From positions 124,001 through 188,000 of the forward strand of contig NZ_JACSCY010000005.1 in NCBI RefSeq assembly GCF_014333615.1: DNA of 64,000 nucleotides, given 5' to 3'. Position numbers and translations under genes: made by a program. Position 1 is the first letter of the stretch, and every line of letters begins with the position of its first letter. Origin of the DNA: Hymenobacter citatus. GTDB taxonomy: Bacteria; Bacteroidota; Bacteroidia; Cytophagales; Hymenobacteraceae. The notes beneath the pieces were generated by a model, which was not told the DNA's origin, did no database searches, and saw only the letters and a list, made by a program, of their open reading frames with translations. Shown here one piece after another: positions 30,420-35,170 of this stretch.

Positions 30420-31514
30420 CTACTCGACCTTCTTGCTCATCACCTTGTTCTGGCGGTTGATGGACTCCAGGTGAATGGCGTCGAGGTATTTCAGGATGAA
30501 GTCTTCGGTGAGGCCCAGCTTGGCGCCTTTCTGCACGCCGCGGTCCAGGATGTCGTTCCAGCGGGCGGTTTGCAGGATGGTGATGTTGTTGTCGCGCTTG
30601 TACTCGCCAATGCGCTCGGCAATCTGCATGCGCTGGCCCAGCAGCTGCAACACCTCGTCGTCGATGTGGTTGATTTGCTCGCGCAGCTTGGCCAAAGCGC
30701 TCAGGAACTCCTGCTTGTCGGTGGTTTCGCGGCGCCAGTGCAGGCCGTCGAGCAGCTCGGCCAGGCGCTCGGGCGTCACCTGCTGCTTAGCATCGCTCCA
30801 GGCGTTGTCCGGGTCAATGTGCGACTCGATAATCAGGCCGTCGTAGTCCAGGTCAAGGGACTTTTGAGCCACCTCGGCCAGCATGTGGCGGTTGCCGCAA
30901 ATGTGGCTCGGGTCGCAGATCATGTGCATCTCCGGCATCCGGCGCTTCATCTCAATGGCCAGGTGCCACATAGGCGCATTGCGGTACTGCGTGTTGCCGT
31001 ACGCCGCGAAACCTCTATGAATCAGACCAATCTGCTTCACACCGGCCTTGGCAATACGCTCCACGGCGCCCGTCCACAGTTCCAGGTCGGGGTTGATGGG
31101 ATTCTTGATGAACACGGGCACGTCCACACCGCGCAGGGCATCGGCCACTTCTTGCACCGAGAACGGGTTTACGGTGGTGCGAGCGCCAATCCACAGGGCA
31201 TCCACGTCGAACGTTAGGGCGTCTTCTACGTGGCGGGCCGTGGCCACCTCAATGGTGGTGGGTAGGCCGGTCAGCTCGCGGGCTTTCTTCAGCCAGGGCA
31301 GGCCCTTGGTGCCAATTCCCTCGAACAGGCCCGGCTTGGTGCGGGGCTTCCAGATACCGGCGCGCAGCATGTCTACCTTACCAGTGGCAGCCAGCTGGGT
31401 GCAGGTGGCAATCAGCTGTTCTTCGGTTTCGGCCGAGCACGGTCCGGAGATGATCAGTGGTTTCTTGGCGGCCACGGCCGCACCCAGTGTCTGGGTTTCG
31501 AGAGAAGTGTTCAT
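30420..31514 (-). CDS. Bifunctional DAHP synthase / chorismate mutase
   Basis: A 364-residue fusion. The N-terminal 3-deoxy-7-phosphoheptulonate synthase (about residues 15-265) shows SGPCSAET, MLRAGIWKPRTKPG, GLIHRGF and CDPSHICGN; it condenses PEP and erythrose-4-phosphate at the entry of the shikimate pathway. The C-terminal type II chorismate mutase (about 275-364) begins LREQINHIDDEVLQLLGQRM and continues GEYKRDNNITI; it makes prephenate. It is last in the Phe/Tyr operon, so the operon holds both the first step and the branch point. ATG 31514 was chosen because 31538 lies inside a palindromic repeat. Confidence 0.95.
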   Translation of the reverse strand: MNTSLETQTLGAAVAAKKPLIISGPCSAETEEQLIATCTQLAATGKVDMLRAGIWKPRTKPGLFEGIGTKGLPWLKKARELTGLPTTIEVATARHVEDALTFDVDALWIGARTTVNPFSVQEVADALRGVDVPVFIKNPINPDLELWTGAVERIAKAGVKQIGLIHRGFAAYGNTQYRNAPMWHLAIEMKRRMPEMHMICDPSHICGNRHMLAEVAQKSLDLDYDGLIIESHIDPDNAWSDAKQQVTPERLAELLDGLHWRRETTDKQEFLSALAKLREQINHIDDEVLQLLGQRMQIAERIGEYKRDNNITILQTARWNDILDRGVQKGAKLGLTEDFILKYLDAIHLESINRQNKVMSKKVE

Positions 31515-31532
31515 AGATAGTATGAGAGATTG

Positions 31533-31646
31533 TGTCATCCTGAGCTTGCGAAGGACCTTATTACGGCTGCAAGATTATGCGTTCGATAGATACTACCAGC
31601 CGTATTGTTCTGGCGTGATAAGGTCCTTCGCAAGCTCAGGATGACA
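31533..31646. repeat. Palindromic intergenic repeat, family 1, copy B
   Basis: TGTCATCCTGAGCTTGCGAA and its continuation pair with the right arm ending in CTCAGGATGACA, with one mismatch in the arms. The 48-base centre is unrelated to copies A and E. It sits between the DAHP synthase and prephenate dehydrogenase genes, inside the operon. Confidence 0.9.
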
Positions 31647-31654
31647 GGAAAGTG

Positions 31655-32497
31655 TTATTTCAGAATGCGTTTGATGTGGTTGGCTTGGTGAATGAGGTCG
31701 GTGAAGGCGGAGTAGTCTTCCCGCGCCAGCACGTCGCGCATGTGCTGGAGCTGGCGCAGGTGTTCATCGAGCACGTCGAGCACGTTTTCGCGGTTTTGAC
31801 GGAAGATGGGCACCCACATAGCCGAGGAGCTTTTGGCCAGACGCACGGTAGAGGAAAAACCGGTACTGGCGAGCTCAAAGATACGCTGCTCGTCGCGTTC
31901 TTTTTCTAACACCGTGAGCGCCAGCGCAAACGACGTGATATGCGAGATGTGCGACACGTAGGCCACGTGCATATCGTGGTCGGCGCCGCCCAGGTACACG
32001 CGCCGCATGCCTAGGGCGTCGGCCACCTGCTCTACCCGCGCCACGGCGTCGGCGGCACTATCTTCGGCGTCGCAGAGTACCAGGGTTTTGTCGCGGAACA
32101 GCTCCGGCACCGCCGCCTCCGGCCCCGAAAACTCGGTACCCGCCATGGGGTGCACCGCTACAAAGCGGCTGCGCTTGGGGTGCTCACGCACTACATCGAG
32201 CAGGGCCTTTTTGGTGGATCCCACGTCGATAACTACTTGATTTTCTACCAAATCGAGCACCGCGGGCAGCACAGTCAGCAACGCGTCCATGGGTACGGCC
32301 AGGATAATCAGGTCGGCGCGGCGCACGGCGGCTTGCAGGTCGGTAGTGCCCTCGTCGATGAGGTGGCGGGCGGCGGCCTCGCGCAGGTGGGCAGGGTTGT
32401 GGTCTACCCCAATGACGTGCGTGGCTACGCCGTGCTGCTTCATGCTCAGCACCAGCGAACCGCCAATCAGCCCTACTCCTACTACCGTGACTATCAT
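31655..32497 (-). CDS. tyrA: Prephenate dehydrogenase
   Basis: A 280-residue NAD(P)-dependent enzyme of tyrosine synthesis. The Rossmann motif VVGVGLIGGSLVLSM is at the N-terminus. Further marks are DVGSTKKALLD, the family core HPMAGTEFSGPEAA (with catalytic His), and a helical C-terminal dimerisation domain around HDMHVAYVSHISHITSFALAL. It converts prephenate to 4-hydroxyphenylpyruvate. It is third in the operon, flanked by two different palindromic repeats. No ACT domain is present, so feedback control is likely elsewhere. Confidence 0.95.
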   Translation of the reverse strand: MIVTVVGVGLIGGSLVLSMKQHGVATHVIGVDHNPAHLREAAARHLIDEGTTDLQAAVRRADLIILAVPMDALLTVLPAVLDLVENQVVIDVGSTKKALLDVVREHPKRSRFVAVHPMAGTEFSGPEAAVPELFRDKTLVLCDAEDSAADAVARVEQVADALGMRRVYLGGADHDMHVAYVSHISHITSFALALTVLEKERDEQRIFELASTGFSSTVRLAKSSSAMWVPIFRQNRENVLDVLDEHLRQLQHMRDVLAREDYSAFTDLIHQANHIKRILK

Positions 32498-32538
32498 GTT
32501 GGTTTTTGGTTGTTTGTGTTTGGTTTTTGACTCTACAA

Positions 32539-32643
32539 AACGTCATTTCGACCAGCGGGAGAAATCTCGCTCGTGAGTAATTTCCTGACGATTGAGATTT
32601 ACCAGGAGCACGCGAGATTTCTCACTCCGTTCGAAATGACGTT
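32539..32643. repeat. Palindromic intergenic repeat, family 2
   Basis: Outer arms AACGTCATTTCGA and TCGAAATGACGTT, then GAGAAATCTCGC and GCGAGATTTCTC, make a long foldback of about 105 bases. The sequence differs from family 1. A half-arm occurs at 17427-17441. Its last base overlaps the stop codon of the aminotransferase gene. Confidence 0.85.
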
Positions 32644-33818
32644 CAAAGAGCTTCCTCTACCCGCCGAATGGCCTCGTCCAGCACTTCTACCTTCTGGCAC
32701 AGGCTGATGCGGATATAGCCGTTGCCGTTGCTACCGAAGATGCCGCCGGGCGTGATGAATACGTTGGCGTCGTAGAGTACCCGGTCGCTCACGGCAAAGC
32801 CGTCGGCATACCCCTCTGGCACGGCGGCCCACACAAATAGGCCTACTTGGTCGCAGCTGTAGGTGCAGCCTAGCAGGTCGAGCAGGGCAAACACCCGCTC
32901 GCGCCGGGCGCGGTAGTGGGCGTTCAGCTCGGCAAACCACTCTTCACCCAGCCCCAGCGCCACTACGGCCGCCTGCTGCACCGGCCGGAACATGCCCGAG
33001 TCCATGTTGCTCTTGAAGCGCAGCACGTCTTGGAGCAGATCGGCGCGGCCGGCCAGCATGCCTACCCGCCAGCCCGCCATGTTGTGCGATTTGCTCAGGG
33101 AGTTCAGCTCCAGCACGCACCCGCGGGCGCCGGGCACGGATAGTAGGCTGGTGGGGTTGTCGTTGAGAATGAAGCTATACGGGTTGTCGTGCACCAATAA
33201 GATGTTGTGGGCCAGCGCGAAATCAACCAGTGCTTGCAGCTCGGTTTCGGTGGCGTGGGTACCGGTGGGCATGTGGGGGTAGTTCACCCACATCAGCTTC
33301 ACGCGGCTCAGGTCGGTGGCGGCCAGGGCCGCCAGGTTGGGTAGCCAGCCGGTTTCGGCGGTCAGGTCGTACTCGCGCAGGGTAGCGCCGGTTAATTCGG
33401 CGGCGGCGCGGTAGGTAGGGTAGCCGGGGTTGGGCAGCAGCACCTCGTCGCCGGCTTCCAGAAACGCCATGCTGATGTGCATAATGCCTTCCTTAGAACC
33501 TAGCAGGGGTAGCACTTCACTGTTGGGGTCCAGCGTTACGCCGTAGGCGCGGGCGTACCATGCGCTCATGGCCTCGCGCAGCGCCGGAAGGCCCTTATAG
33601 GACTGGTACCCGTGGGCATTGGGTAGGGCCGCATCATCGGCCAGGGCAGCTACTACGGCGGGCGGCGGCGGCATGTCGGGGCTGCCAATGCCCAGGTTGA
33701 TGATTTGCTTACCGGCTTTGTTGAGGGCATCAATCTCCTGCAACTTGCGGGAGAAGTAGTACTCCTGCGTGTGGGCCAGGCGCGAGGCGGTGGTAATCTG
33801 TATCTGCTGATCGTTCAT
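32643..33818 (-). CDS. Class I/II PLP aminotransferase (probable aromatic/prephenate step)
   Basis: A 391-residue fold-type I aminotransferase. The PLP Lys is in LNSLSKSHNMAGWRVGM. Other marks are NLGIGSPDMPPP at the N-terminus, LLPNPGYPTYRAA, MWVNYPHMPTG, VHDNPYSFIL and the Arg-bearing FITPGGIFGSNGNGYIRISL near the end. Overall it resembles the LL-diaminopimelate/aspartate aminotransferase group. Placed between prephenate dehydratase and prephenate dehydrogenase, it most likely transaminates phenylpyruvate and hydroxyphenylpyruvate (or prephenate) with glutamate or aspartate. Specificity is inferred from the operon. Confidence 0.88.
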   Translation of the reverse strand: MNDQQIQITTASRLAHTQEYYFSRKLQEIDALNKAGKQIINLGIGSPDMPPPPAVVAALADDAALPNAHGYQSYKGLPALREAMSAWYARAYGVTLDPNSEVLPLLGSKEGIMHISMAFLEAGDEVLLPNPGYPTYRAAAELTGATLREYDLTAETGWLPNLAALAATDLSRVKLMWVNYPHMPTGTHATETELQALVDFALAHNILLVHDNPYSFILNDNPTSLLSVPGARGCVLELNSLSKSHNMAGWRVGMLAGRADLLQDVLRFKSNMDSGMFRPVQQAAVVALGLGEEWFAELNAHYRARRERVFALLDLLGCTYSCDQVGLFVWAAVPEGYADGFAVSDRVLYDANVFITPGGIFGSNGNGYIRISLCQKVEVLDEAIRRVEEAL

Positions 33819-33827
33819 GACAAAGGG

Positions 33828-34706
33828 TTATTGAAGCACGTTTCCCTGGCTCACTACGTGGGCTGGCACAGCCTCCAGCACATCGCGGCGGTAGGCGCCC
33901 AGCACCTCCAGGTGCTCCGTTACGGGGCGTAGCTCGCGCAACAGATCAGCTATTTGTCCGGCATACGCCAACTCCACATCCGCATGAAAACCGTACTGCC
34001 AAGTGCGCCCCGGCCGGGGGCACGATTGCAGCTTCGATAGGTTCAGGCCCATGCCGGCAATGCGGCTCAGCACGGCAGCCAGGCTACCCTGGGTGTGGTT
34101 GGTGTGGAAATACAGCGACACTTTATCGGCGTCGGGGTGCACCACATCGGGGGCAGGCGCGCCGCGCTCCAGCACCAGGAAGCGGGTGTAGTTGGCCGGT
34201 TCATCGTGGATGTCAGCCGCCACGATTTCCAGATCAAACAGCTCGGCGGCCAGCGCGCCTGCTACGGCGGCAATGCCCGGCCGCTGGTGCTCCCGGATGC
34301 GCTGGGCGCTCAGGGCCGTATCCTCGGTTTCTACCAGGCGCCAGTGGCCGTGGCTACCCAGGTAGTCGGCGCACTGAAGCAGAGCCATGGGGTGCGAGTG
34401 CACCTCATGCAGGTCGTCGAGGCGCTGGCCGGGTAGGGCCATCAGGTGCTGCCGGATGTGCAGGTACACTTCTCCAATCACGTGCACCTCGTGGCGTTGT
34501 AGCAAGGAGTAGTTAGGTAAAATACTGCCTGCCAACGAGTTTTCAATAGCCATCAGCCCGAAGGTAGTGGTGCCGCCGGCCACGTGGCGCACCACCTGCC
34601 CGAAGGTAGCGCAGGGAGCAATGGCGTGGTCGAGGCCAAAATACCGCCGGGCCGCTACCTGGTGGAAACTTCCTTCAAATCCCTGAATGGCAATAGTCGG
34701 ATGCAT
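33828..34706 (-). CDS. pheA: Prephenate dehydratase
   Basis: A 292-residue enzyme making phenylpyruvate. The N-terminal periplasmic-binding-like catalytic domain starts IQGFEGSFHQVAARRYFG, continues GLMAIENSLAGSI, and carries the diagnostic NYTRFLVL before the ACT domain. The C-terminal ACT domain (KVSLYFHTNHTQGSLAAVL, NLSKLQSCPRPG) would bind phenylalanine for feedback inhibition; the usual ESRP reads QSCPRPG. It is first in the operon. The start lies 20 bases after the second attenuator hairpin, so its expression depends on the leader region 34727-34991. Confidence 0.95.
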   Translation of the reverse strand: MHPTIAIQGFEGSFHQVAARRYFGLDHAIAPCATFGQVVRHVAGGTTTFGLMAIENSLAGSILPNYSLLQRHEVHVIGEVYLHIRQHLMALPGQRLDDLHEVHSHPMALLQCADYLGSHGHWRLVETEDTALSAQRIREHQRPGIAAVAGALAAELFDLEIVAADIHDEPANYTRFLVLERGAPAPDVVHPDADKVSLYFHTNHTQGSLAAVLSRIAGMGLNLSKLQSCPRPGRTWQYGFHADVELAYAGQIADLLRELRPVTEHLEVLGAYRRDVLEAVPAHVVSQGNVLQ

Positions 34707-34726: not shown

Positions 34727-34755
34727 AAAAAAAGGGCCTCCTTGGTAGGGCCCTT
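34727..34755 (-). terminator. Attenuator 2 (terminator hairpin before prephenate dehydratase)
   Basis: On the minus strand AAGGGCC and GGCCCTT (34755-34749 and 34738-34732) form a 7-bp stem, immediately followed by a run of seven T (34733-34727). It lies 12 bases after the stop of leader peptide 2 and 20 bases before the structural gene. The 5' arm GGGCCC could instead pair with the GGGCCC at 34789-34784 inside the leader ORF (codons 21-23), which would prevent termination. Confidence 0.8.
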
Positions 34756-34766
34756 CGTTGTGCTGC

Positions 34767-34850
34767 TTAGCAAGTGCAAACGCGGGCCCGCTTCTTCGGG
34801 TAGAAGAAGTAAAAAAAGAAATAGGTGAAAGCGGGAACGTTGACGAGCAT
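34767..34850 (-). CDS. Leader peptide 2, Phe/Tyr-rich (27 aa)
   Basis: ATG at 34850, TAA at 34767. The peptide begins MLVNVPAF. Residues 8-17 contain nine aromatic residues out of ten (six Phe, three Tyr, one Thr). It ends with a basic PKKRARVCTC tail. A peptide of this composition in front of a Phe/Tyr operon, followed at once by a terminator, is the hallmark of ribosome-mediated attenuation. When charged tRNA-Phe or tRNA-Tyr is scarce, the ribosome stalls and leaves the GGGCCC antiterminator segment free. When they are plentiful, the ribosome reaches the stop, covers it, and the terminator forms. This is inferred; the peptide itself is probably without function. Confidence 0.85.
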   Translation of the reverse strand: MLVNVPAFTYFFFYFFYPKKRARVCTC

Positions 34851-34855
34851 GGGTT

Positions 34856-34887
34856 AAAAAAAAAGCCTTCCGGGGTGGGAGGCTTTT
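34856..34887 (-). terminator. Attenuator 1 (terminator hairpin after leader 1)
   Basis: On the minus strand AAAAGCCTCCC (34887-34877) pairs with GGAAGGCTTTT (34871-34861) with one mismatch. The T-run of nine bases (34864-34856) starts within the 3' arm. It lies between the two leader ORFs, 41 bases after the stop of leader 1 and 5 bases before the ATG of leader 2. GAGGCCGCTTT at 34924-34914, just past the leader 1 stop, can pair with the 5' arm (GAGGC with GCCTC, then TTT with AAA after a bulge) as an antiterminator. Confidence 0.8.
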
Positions 34888-34928
34888 GTGTGATTCAGGA
34901 GTAGGGTTCCTACAAAGCGGCCTCGCTG

Positions 34929-34991
34929 CTACGATTGCTCGTAGTAGGTAAAGTAAAAGCTAAAAAAAGCCGGGGCCGAAGTAAGAAGCAT
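34929..34991 (-). CDS. Leader peptide 1, Phe/Tyr-rich (20 aa)
   Basis: ATG at 34991, TAG at 34929. The peptide begins MLLTSAPA and then has seven aromatic residues in nine positions (Phe at 9, 10, 12, 14; Tyr at 13, 16, 17), ending EQS. It shares the ML...PAF opening with leader 2, which points to tandem duplication. The frame is open upstream to 35147, but that extension runs toward the divergent promoter and has no coding character. Attenuator 1 follows. The two leader-terminator units in series would give two successive checks on aromatic amino-acid supply before the operon is transcribed. Confidence 0.8.
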   Translation of the reverse strand: MLLTSAPAFFSFYFTYYEQS

Positions 34992-35093
34992 GTACGAGGT
35001 GCGTTGGCCTATTTGAGGAAAGGCAACGGCCAAAGCTGCGCAATCATTTTTTAAAAACCAAACATCCGTTGGGCGGGCCGCTACGTTGGTGTG

Positions 35094-35125
35094 TTTGCAC
35101 CCACTGCCAAAACCGTCGTATTTTG
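35094..35125 (+). promoter_or_regulatory. Candidate Bacteroidota-type promoter
   Basis: TTTG at 35094-35097 and TATTTTG at 35119-35125 are separated by 21 bases. This approximates the -33 TTTG / -7 TAnnTTTG promoter of this phylum and lies about 45 bases before the start of the TPR gene. The -7 element is one base short of consensus. The matching promoter for the divergent leader was not identified. Confidence 0.35.
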
Positions 35126-35170
35126 CAGGCAAACCGCTTGTTTGCATTTTTTTATTCCGCAGGAAAAATC

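Follow-up and report, generated by a model that had tools for sequence, protein, structure and literature searches.

Two putative leader-peptide attenuators in series before the phenylalanine/tyrosine operon of Hymenobacter

The textbook picture of leader-peptide attenuation shows a single leader with a single terminator, and the pheL-pheA type consists of a Phe-rich leader ORF, an antiterminator and a terminator. The locus described here resembles the Phe_leader family (RF01859, pheL-pheA) in having these three parts before pheA. It differs by two complete attenuators in series, by Tyr being about as frequent as Phe, and by belonging to another phylum.

Judged from the available text of the sources, the mgtCBR leader of Salmonella comes closest among the described cases, with two short ORFs (mgtM and mgtP) in one leader mRNA that control transcription of the operon (PMC3641672); at the present locus we infer a single transcript as well. 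The mgtCBR ORFs sense ATP and proline, while both ORFs of the present locus carry Phe and Tyr by codon content; the mgtCBR stem-loops are unlike intrinsic terminators, whereas the present hairpins are of the intrinsic-terminator kind. The authors called mgtCBR a singular example with different signals (PMC3641672). Tandem T-boxes and riboswitches share the repetition of sensing units before one operon, but their aptamers bind tRNA or a metabolite directly, whereas the sensor here would be the translating ribosome (PMC7583486, PMC12452182). The rimP-leader of several Gammaproteobacteria has two tandem terminators, the upstream one with a potential antiterminator, but it precedes a different gene and the available text mentions no leader peptide (PMC2965389). 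Two leader peptides (ermBL and ermBL2) also precede ermB, where the attenuation is translational and governed by erythromycin (PMC8274638). Within the same phylum, leader-peptide attenuation before amino-acid operons has been described for Flavobacterium psychrophilum, with no tandem arrangement mentioned in the available text; Flavobacterium is stated there to be largely devoid of Shine-Dalgarno sequences (PMC9723704). No description of two same-signal leader peptides in series was found in the open-licence literature, among the matches listed, by title or start of abstract.

The aromatic operon and its leader region

The window (the whole stretch of DNA analysed, 64 kb of Hymenobacter citatus) carries the following features, in order of transcription.

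35031-35062, minus strand: promoter-like motif TTTG-N20-CAGCTTTG, a pattern match that we take to be of the Bacteroidota -33/-7 type
34991-34929, minus strand: leader ORF 1, 20 codons, MLLTSAPAFFSFYFTYYEQS and stop, 4 Phe and 3 Tyr, by direct reading
34929-34944, minus strand: hairpin spanning the final aromatic codons of leader 1 and its stop, CTACGA-GCAA-TCGTAG
34914-34924, minus strand: putative antiterminator 1, 5' strand, GAGGC..CTTT directly past stop 1, its partner being the 5' arm of terminator 1
34856-34887, minus strand: terminator 1, hairpin 34887-34862 and T9 at 34864-34856
34850-34767, minus strand: leader ORF 2, 27 codons, MLVNVPAFTYFFFYFFYPKKRARVCTC and stop, 6 Phe and 3 Tyr, by direct reading
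34791-34809, minus strand: hairpin in leader 2 between its final Phe codons and its two Lys codons, CTTCTTC-TACCC-GAAGAAG
34776-34789, minus strand: putative antiterminator 2, 5' strand, GGGCCC (34789-34784), then the GCGTTTGC stretch
34748-34759, minus strand: putative antiterminator 2, 3' strand, AACG..GGGCCC, overlapping the 5' arm of terminator 2
34727-34756, minus strand: terminator 2, hairpin 34756-34731 and T7 at 34733-34727
33828-34706, minus strand: pheA, prephenate dehydratase (PF00800, E 2e-54)
32643-33818, minus strand: class I/II aminotransferase (PF00155)
31655-32497, minus strand: tyrA, prephenate dehydrogenase (NF006307, over the cut-off)
30420-31538, minus strand: DAHP synthase fused to chorismate mutase (PF00793, PF01817)

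The ORFs, hairpins, T9 and T7 runs, pheA distance and positions of GAGGC and GGGCCC claimed by the initial annotation all agreed with direct reading. Leader 1 has seven Phe or Tyr within positions 9-17 and leader 2 has nine within positions 8-17, codon 17 being the last aromatic codon in both. GAGGC occupies 34924-34920, and antiterminator 2 of the window combines the GGGCCC pairing with a CGTT pair (-17.8 kcal/mol). From the T7 of terminator 2, 20 further bases lead to the pheA start at 34706. Both leaders combine an aromatic ORF before a cognate operon, a terminator called by folding and an antiterminator predicted to exclude it. A simple terminator scan, which accepts only stems without interruption and loops of 3-8, listed neither hairpin; both were called by folding. 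On the plus strand, another terminator-like hairpin with a T-run (35124-35146), listed by the simple scan, stands before a divergent TPR gene (likely ATG about 35171) and points into it.

The two strands of the 64 kb window together hold 562 frames of 10-45 codons that begin with ATG, each nested start being taken as a frame of its own. At least six aromatic residues in ten codons were found in leaders 1 and 2 only, a chance estimate that applies to this window alone. Outside such ORFs, six to seven in ten codons were displayed at four other places in the six frames (+48073, +10740, +26730 and -40470). No Rfam family matched the window at gathering scores; T-boxes are among the Rfam families, and a T-box or riboswitch was rejected on this basis. 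Over terminator 1, RF01859 scored 24.3 bits, below its gathering score of 55.

PheA of the window is 87% identical to that of Hymenobacter profundi, and matched NCBIfam PRK11898 with an E of 5.6e-56, below the cut-off of that model. Both intra-operon gaps flanking tyrA, between the aminotransferase gene and tyrA (32498-32642) and between tyrA and aroG (31540-31639), contained imperfect palindromes. The arm CCTGAGCTTGCGAAGGACCT of one of them occurred in 93 + 97 copies in the genome with at most one mismatch, many of those listed facing each other in pairs at a distance of 68 bases (REP- or MITE-like).

Conservation and predicted RNA pairing in Hymenobacter

A PheA match was obtained in 107 of 120 Hymenobacter genomes and 106 upstream regions were used, one genome (G107) being left out as its PheA lay in two fragments at contig ends. 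Two aromatic leaders were found in 81 of these regions and one in 25. The comparison of pheA upstream regions proposed with the initial annotation did not give the refuting result named there, a lack of conserved aromatic codons or hairpins in close relatives. Folding placed a terminator-like hairpin with a T-run after 184 of 187 leaders, versus 2 of 113 shuffled windows, which ignore kinship. Terminator 1 of G030, G037 and G092 was missed by the scan because its T-run is broken. No PheA match was obtained in 13 of the 120 genomes, nor an ilvD match in 9 of 21; such genomes are possibly auxotrophs, or their genes divergent. One genome (G114, L191) retained attenuator 1 with a PheA match covering the first 33 residues only.

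Alignments were dereplicated at 94%, leaving 53 of 106 rows for leader 1 and 69 of 81 for leader 2. Where a single-base difference touched an aromatic codon of the core, both codons were aromatic in 3794 of 4341 cases (87.4%) in the 53 rows of leader 1 and in 6243 of 7295 (85.6%) in the 69 rows of leader 2; the genetic code alone gives an expectation of 8/32 (25%), the sequence pairs not being independent and kinship being ignored. Seven genomes (G004, G034, G053, G058, G065, G079 and G114) had a leader 1 that continued, in a different frame, beyond the usual stop; the three of them that were aligned (G004, G034 and G079) retained the leader-1 hairpin, with a changed pair in two.

Both leader hairpins were chosen by a scan of the very alignments used to test them. 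The leader-1 hairpin (CTACGC..GCGTAG across the stop) formed a helix of seven paired columns with 88.6% of cells paired (slid controls 25-44%) and four pairs changed on both sides, and in none of the five measures did more than 10 of 500 shuffles equal it. The leader-2 hairpin (CTTCTTC..GAAGAAG, Phe and Lys codons) was paired in 93.5% of cells (slid controls 51-72%) and exceeded all 500 shuffles in three measures; its numbers of double-change pairs and of pair types were no better than in shuffles, 179 and 273 of the 500 reaching them. From the alignments, RNAalifold recovered terminator 1 together with the leader-2 hairpin, and neither antiterminator nor terminator 2.

Antiterminator pairing was assessed by the duplex energy of the strand following the stall site with the terminator's 5' arm, the genome's own partner being compared to those of other genomes. 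For antiterminator 1 (52 of the 53 rows, G030 having been aligned with other limits and omitted) the mean was -16.36 kcal/mol with own partners versus -12.41 with swapped and -9.14 with shuffled ones. For antiterminator 2 (69 rows, strands non-overlapping) it was -20.82 versus -18.52 and -12.81. None of 2000 permutations, which ignore kinship, was as low for either antiterminator, and in the median row 5 of 51 foreign partners paired better than the own one for antiterminator 1 and 17 of 68 for antiterminator 2. The same pairing was made of different sequences by group (TCGAG/CTCGA, AACGAG/CTCGTT and GAGGC/GCCTC). Several genomes displayed a second antiterminator-2 helix, such as TTTGC/GCAAA, in addition to GGGGCC/GGCCCC.

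Other lineages, other operons and history of the operon

A single aromatic leader with a terminator preceded pheA in 12 of 13 loci of other Hymenobacteraceae, in 30 of 31 from further genera of family f56 (L276 omitted) and in 17 of 18 from elsewhere in the class (L255 and L263, which belong to family f83, omitted). Other families of the order had no leader in 16 of 22 loci; one of these 22 regions scored two leaders, probably L228 with both weak, and was not counted as a case. Genus g5, where four of eight genomes had no PheA match and one had PheA in fragments, displayed two leaders in 3 of 3 loci. In Chitinophaga (the best 30 of 40 PheA matches and L278, that is L278, L287 and L297-L325, not a random draw), two leaders were found in 31 of 31 loci and two terminators in 30, one locus having a third weak ORF. 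Terminator 1 of the Chitinophaga loci inspected had a broken T-run (TTTCTATTT and similar). When loci were grouped by Chitinophaga in the record name, 8 of 9 had two leaders, the ninth (L067, a metagenome bin) having one. In family f83 (best 30 of 38 PheA matches, L340 and L341 omitted as cut by contig ends), two leaders were found in 18 of 28 usable loci and two terminators in 12. This family (L326-L335, L337, L338, L351 and L353) was a third lineage with paired aromatic leaders. In several of its loci both leaders ended in FYGQP or similar and the terminators were alike, as after tandem duplication.

Among the other operons compared in Hymenobacter, all 20 trpE loci (L356-L375, the best TIGR00564 match, below the cut-off of that model) carried a conserved Trp leader (such as ..QAWWWPYGNSGRDSLCVR), and 19 of 20 hisG loci (L376-L395) a conserved His leader (such as ..HHHHHGHHSSF). 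Both apparently are single attenuators. An extra upstream ORF with two Trp in six codons was found in 3 of 20 trpE regions, including that of the window's genome, the three being mutually unlike; for ilvD, 3 of 12 regions had a leader-like ORF by the criterion. With one conserved leader each for trpE and hisG and few leader-like ORFs for ilvD, the pair appeared to be peculiar to the Phe/Tyr operon among the operons compared.

In a joint tree of PheA and the aminotransferase (98 rows, quick method), Hymenobacter and g5 formed one clade (support 100), adjoining Chitinophaga with a support of 87, which is not strong. Together they fell in an otherwise Chitinophagaceae group, apart from the other Hymenobacteraceae (100). 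L276 was omitted from the trees. Every second row of other Chitinophagaceae was used in them and, in the joint tree, every third row of other Hymenobacteraceae, of the order and of the class; rows with stops or too short were omitted from the joint tree, which kept 34 of 36 Hymenobacter and g5 rows and 9 of 10 from Chitinophaga. In the tree of PheA alone the branching order was not settled, and f83 (L255 and L263) fell elsewhere. Since the Hymenobacter operon groups with that of Chitinophaga rather than with those of other Hymenobacteraceae, horizontal transfer is probable; as the simplest reading, the operon and its double attenuator probably passed between the Chitinophaga and Hymenobacter lineages, in either direction.

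Attenuators of f83 were more alike within a genome (mean score 28.7, 13 genomes) than between genomes (19.0), which suggests that this pair arose by duplication. Hardly any excess was found in Hymenobacter (19.6 versus 18.0, 41 genomes) and none in Chitinophaga (23.6 versus 24.0, 30 genomes).

Proposed mechanism and alternative readings

The best-supported reading, and a likely one, is two ribosome-mediated attenuators in series on one transcript before the aromatic operon, both sensing Phe and Tyr, with multiplied read-through; its core, two leader-peptide attenuators in series, is that of the initial annotation. The comparison supports conservation of the ORFs with their aromatic codons, of the terminators and the antiterminator pairing, and of the promoter-like site; leader translation, stalling, the single transcript and the multiplication of read-through are what we infer from them. 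RNA polymerase would begin upstream of leader 1 and meet attenuator 1, then attenuator 2. When charged tRNA-Phe or tRNA-Tyr is low, a ribosome would stall in the aromatic run of the leader and free the strand just downstream, which lies past the stop codon in leader 1 and within the codons that follow the Lys pair in leader 2. Pairing of the freed strand with the terminator's 5' arm would let transcription continue, while a ribosome at the stop codon would cover the antiterminator strand, so that the terminator would form and transcription stop. Because polymerase would have to clear both attenuators, read-through would multiply, giving very little leak as long as both amino acids are abundant and a steeper and wider induction when either is scarce.

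The spacing was compared to a ribosome footprint of 12-15 nt from the P site (PMC3641672, as given in its available text). With codon 17 in the A site of leader 1, GAGGC (nt 68-72 from ATG1) is left free, and a ribosome at the stop codon covers it. In leader 2, the codon-17 ribosome ends about the edge of GGGCCC (nt 62-67), which is borderline, and the stop-codon ribosome covers the TTTGC part. In a toy model with assumed parameters, regulation was 7.6- and 7.2-fold for the attenuators taken singly and 55-fold for the series, and basal read-through was about 11-12% with one attenuator and 1.3% with both. Engineering two transcription attenuators in series is said, in the available text of its description, to improve dynamic range (PMC3753616).

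Among the alternatives, it is unlikely that the two leaders read different amino acids, for instance Phe and Tyr in one and Trp as well in the other, and so gate the operon by different inputs. Chitinophaga points in this direction: 30 of 31 first leaders have a Trp codon towards the close of their aromatic run, and 0 of 31 second leaders have any, so that its leader 1 may sense Trp too. The operon also includes the DAHP synthase, which supplies all three aromatic pathways. In the 81 Hymenobacter genomes with both leaders, by contrast, contents were similar (mean 3.68 Phe and 3.95 Tyr in leader 1, 4.94 Phe and 4.11 Tyr in leader 2) and Trp was found in 0 of 81 first leaders and 4 of 81 second leaders. 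The different Phe/Tyr bias supposed by the initial annotation was accordingly weak in Hymenobacter, the only clear difference between leaders being the Trp of Chitinophaga. Among the core columns, 6 of 8 in leader 1 and 3 of 9 in leader 2 had both Phe and Tyr at 10% or more. This exchange at core positions suggests that selection kept 'Phe or Tyr' rather than a fixed residue, in which case shortage of either should trigger each leader. A different amino acid for each leader was rejected for Hymenobacter, codon content and Phe/Tyr exchange lending it no support.

Somewhat more doubtful still is that attenuator 1 alone regulates, attenuator 2 being a leftover or a back-up of low effect. Most other sampled loci with any leader manage with one, and 24 of the 106 Hymenobacter regions have attenuator 1 only, with just 24-99 nt from terminator 1 to pheA, which leaves no room for a second attenuator. 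In the remaining one of the 25 single-leader regions (G044, L181), leader 2 has no stop codon and runs into the terminator region. Attenuator 2 thus appears dispensable in some lineages. Singles and doubles were mixed in two separate parts of the PheA tree, one with singles L015 and L017 beside L012, L018 and L197, the other with L196, L198, L200, L201, L202 and L204 beside L195 and L206, so that an ancestral pair would imply at least two losses of attenuator 2. The scan of named loci found one leader in L015 and none in L017; the contig of the latter is that of G053, where the genus scan found one. A leftover would not stay conserved, yet leader 2 with its terminator and antiterminator is, where present, conserved to roughly the same degree as leader 1 with its own.

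It is improbable that leader 2 belongs to a second transcription unit with its own promoter, leader 1 being a separate short RNA. The end of the terminator 1 stem lies 11-28 nt (median 24) before ATG2, so that a promoter within attenuator 1 is conceivable; in the window, five bases only separate the T-run from ATG2. Promoter-like motifs were searched in the 100 nt before each leader with a looser pattern (TTG, 16-24 nt, then [TC][AT]n(n)[TCA]TTG[CG]), fitted with the sequences already viewed after a first, stricter pattern had given 3 of 106 (shuffles 0.2). The looser pattern matched upstream of leader 1 in 94 of 106 genomes (2.3 in shuffles) and upstream of leader 2 in 0 of 81 windows (1.8 in shuffles), this being the one pattern type tried. 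The form with TATG or TTTG in front was found in 66 of 106 regions before leader 1 and 0 of 81 before leader 2, and the -7-like part began 25-34 nt upstream of ATG1 in 92 of 106. An own promoter for leader 2 was rejected, the 81 windows containing no motif. A transcription start downstream of 34850, which would have let the operon bypass leader 1, was likewise not indicated, and both leaders probably act on one transcript since the motif precedes leader 1 and not leader 2.

Chance short ORFs beside ordinary terminators are hardly conceivable: short ORFs and hairpins are generally common, but only 2 of the 562 window frames qualified, both leaders recurred in 81 of 106 genomes, and 52 control upstream regions (trpE, hisG and ilvD) gave 0 aromatic leaders by the same criteria; chance was rejected on these grounds.

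Two serial attenuators of Phe/Tyr charging thus remain the preferred reading, and such tandem switches look like a way of keeping genes tightly off until both agree. On balance we lean towards a wider interpretation, in which same-signal leader-peptide attenuators in series would be a recurrent and transferable design of the Bacteroidota: a pair of ribosome-based sensors of Phe/Tyr charging with multiplying read-throughs (near-zero leak and steep response), an operon transferred between Chitinophaga and Hymenobacter, and a separate origin in f83, perhaps by duplication. The conserved same-signal series, together with natural relatives carrying one or two attenuators, makes the benefit of a second attenuator (leak, dynamic range, steepness) directly askable. 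It also adds to the signs that ribosome-mediated attenuation is common in the Bacteroidota, a phylum largely without Shine-Dalgarno sequences.
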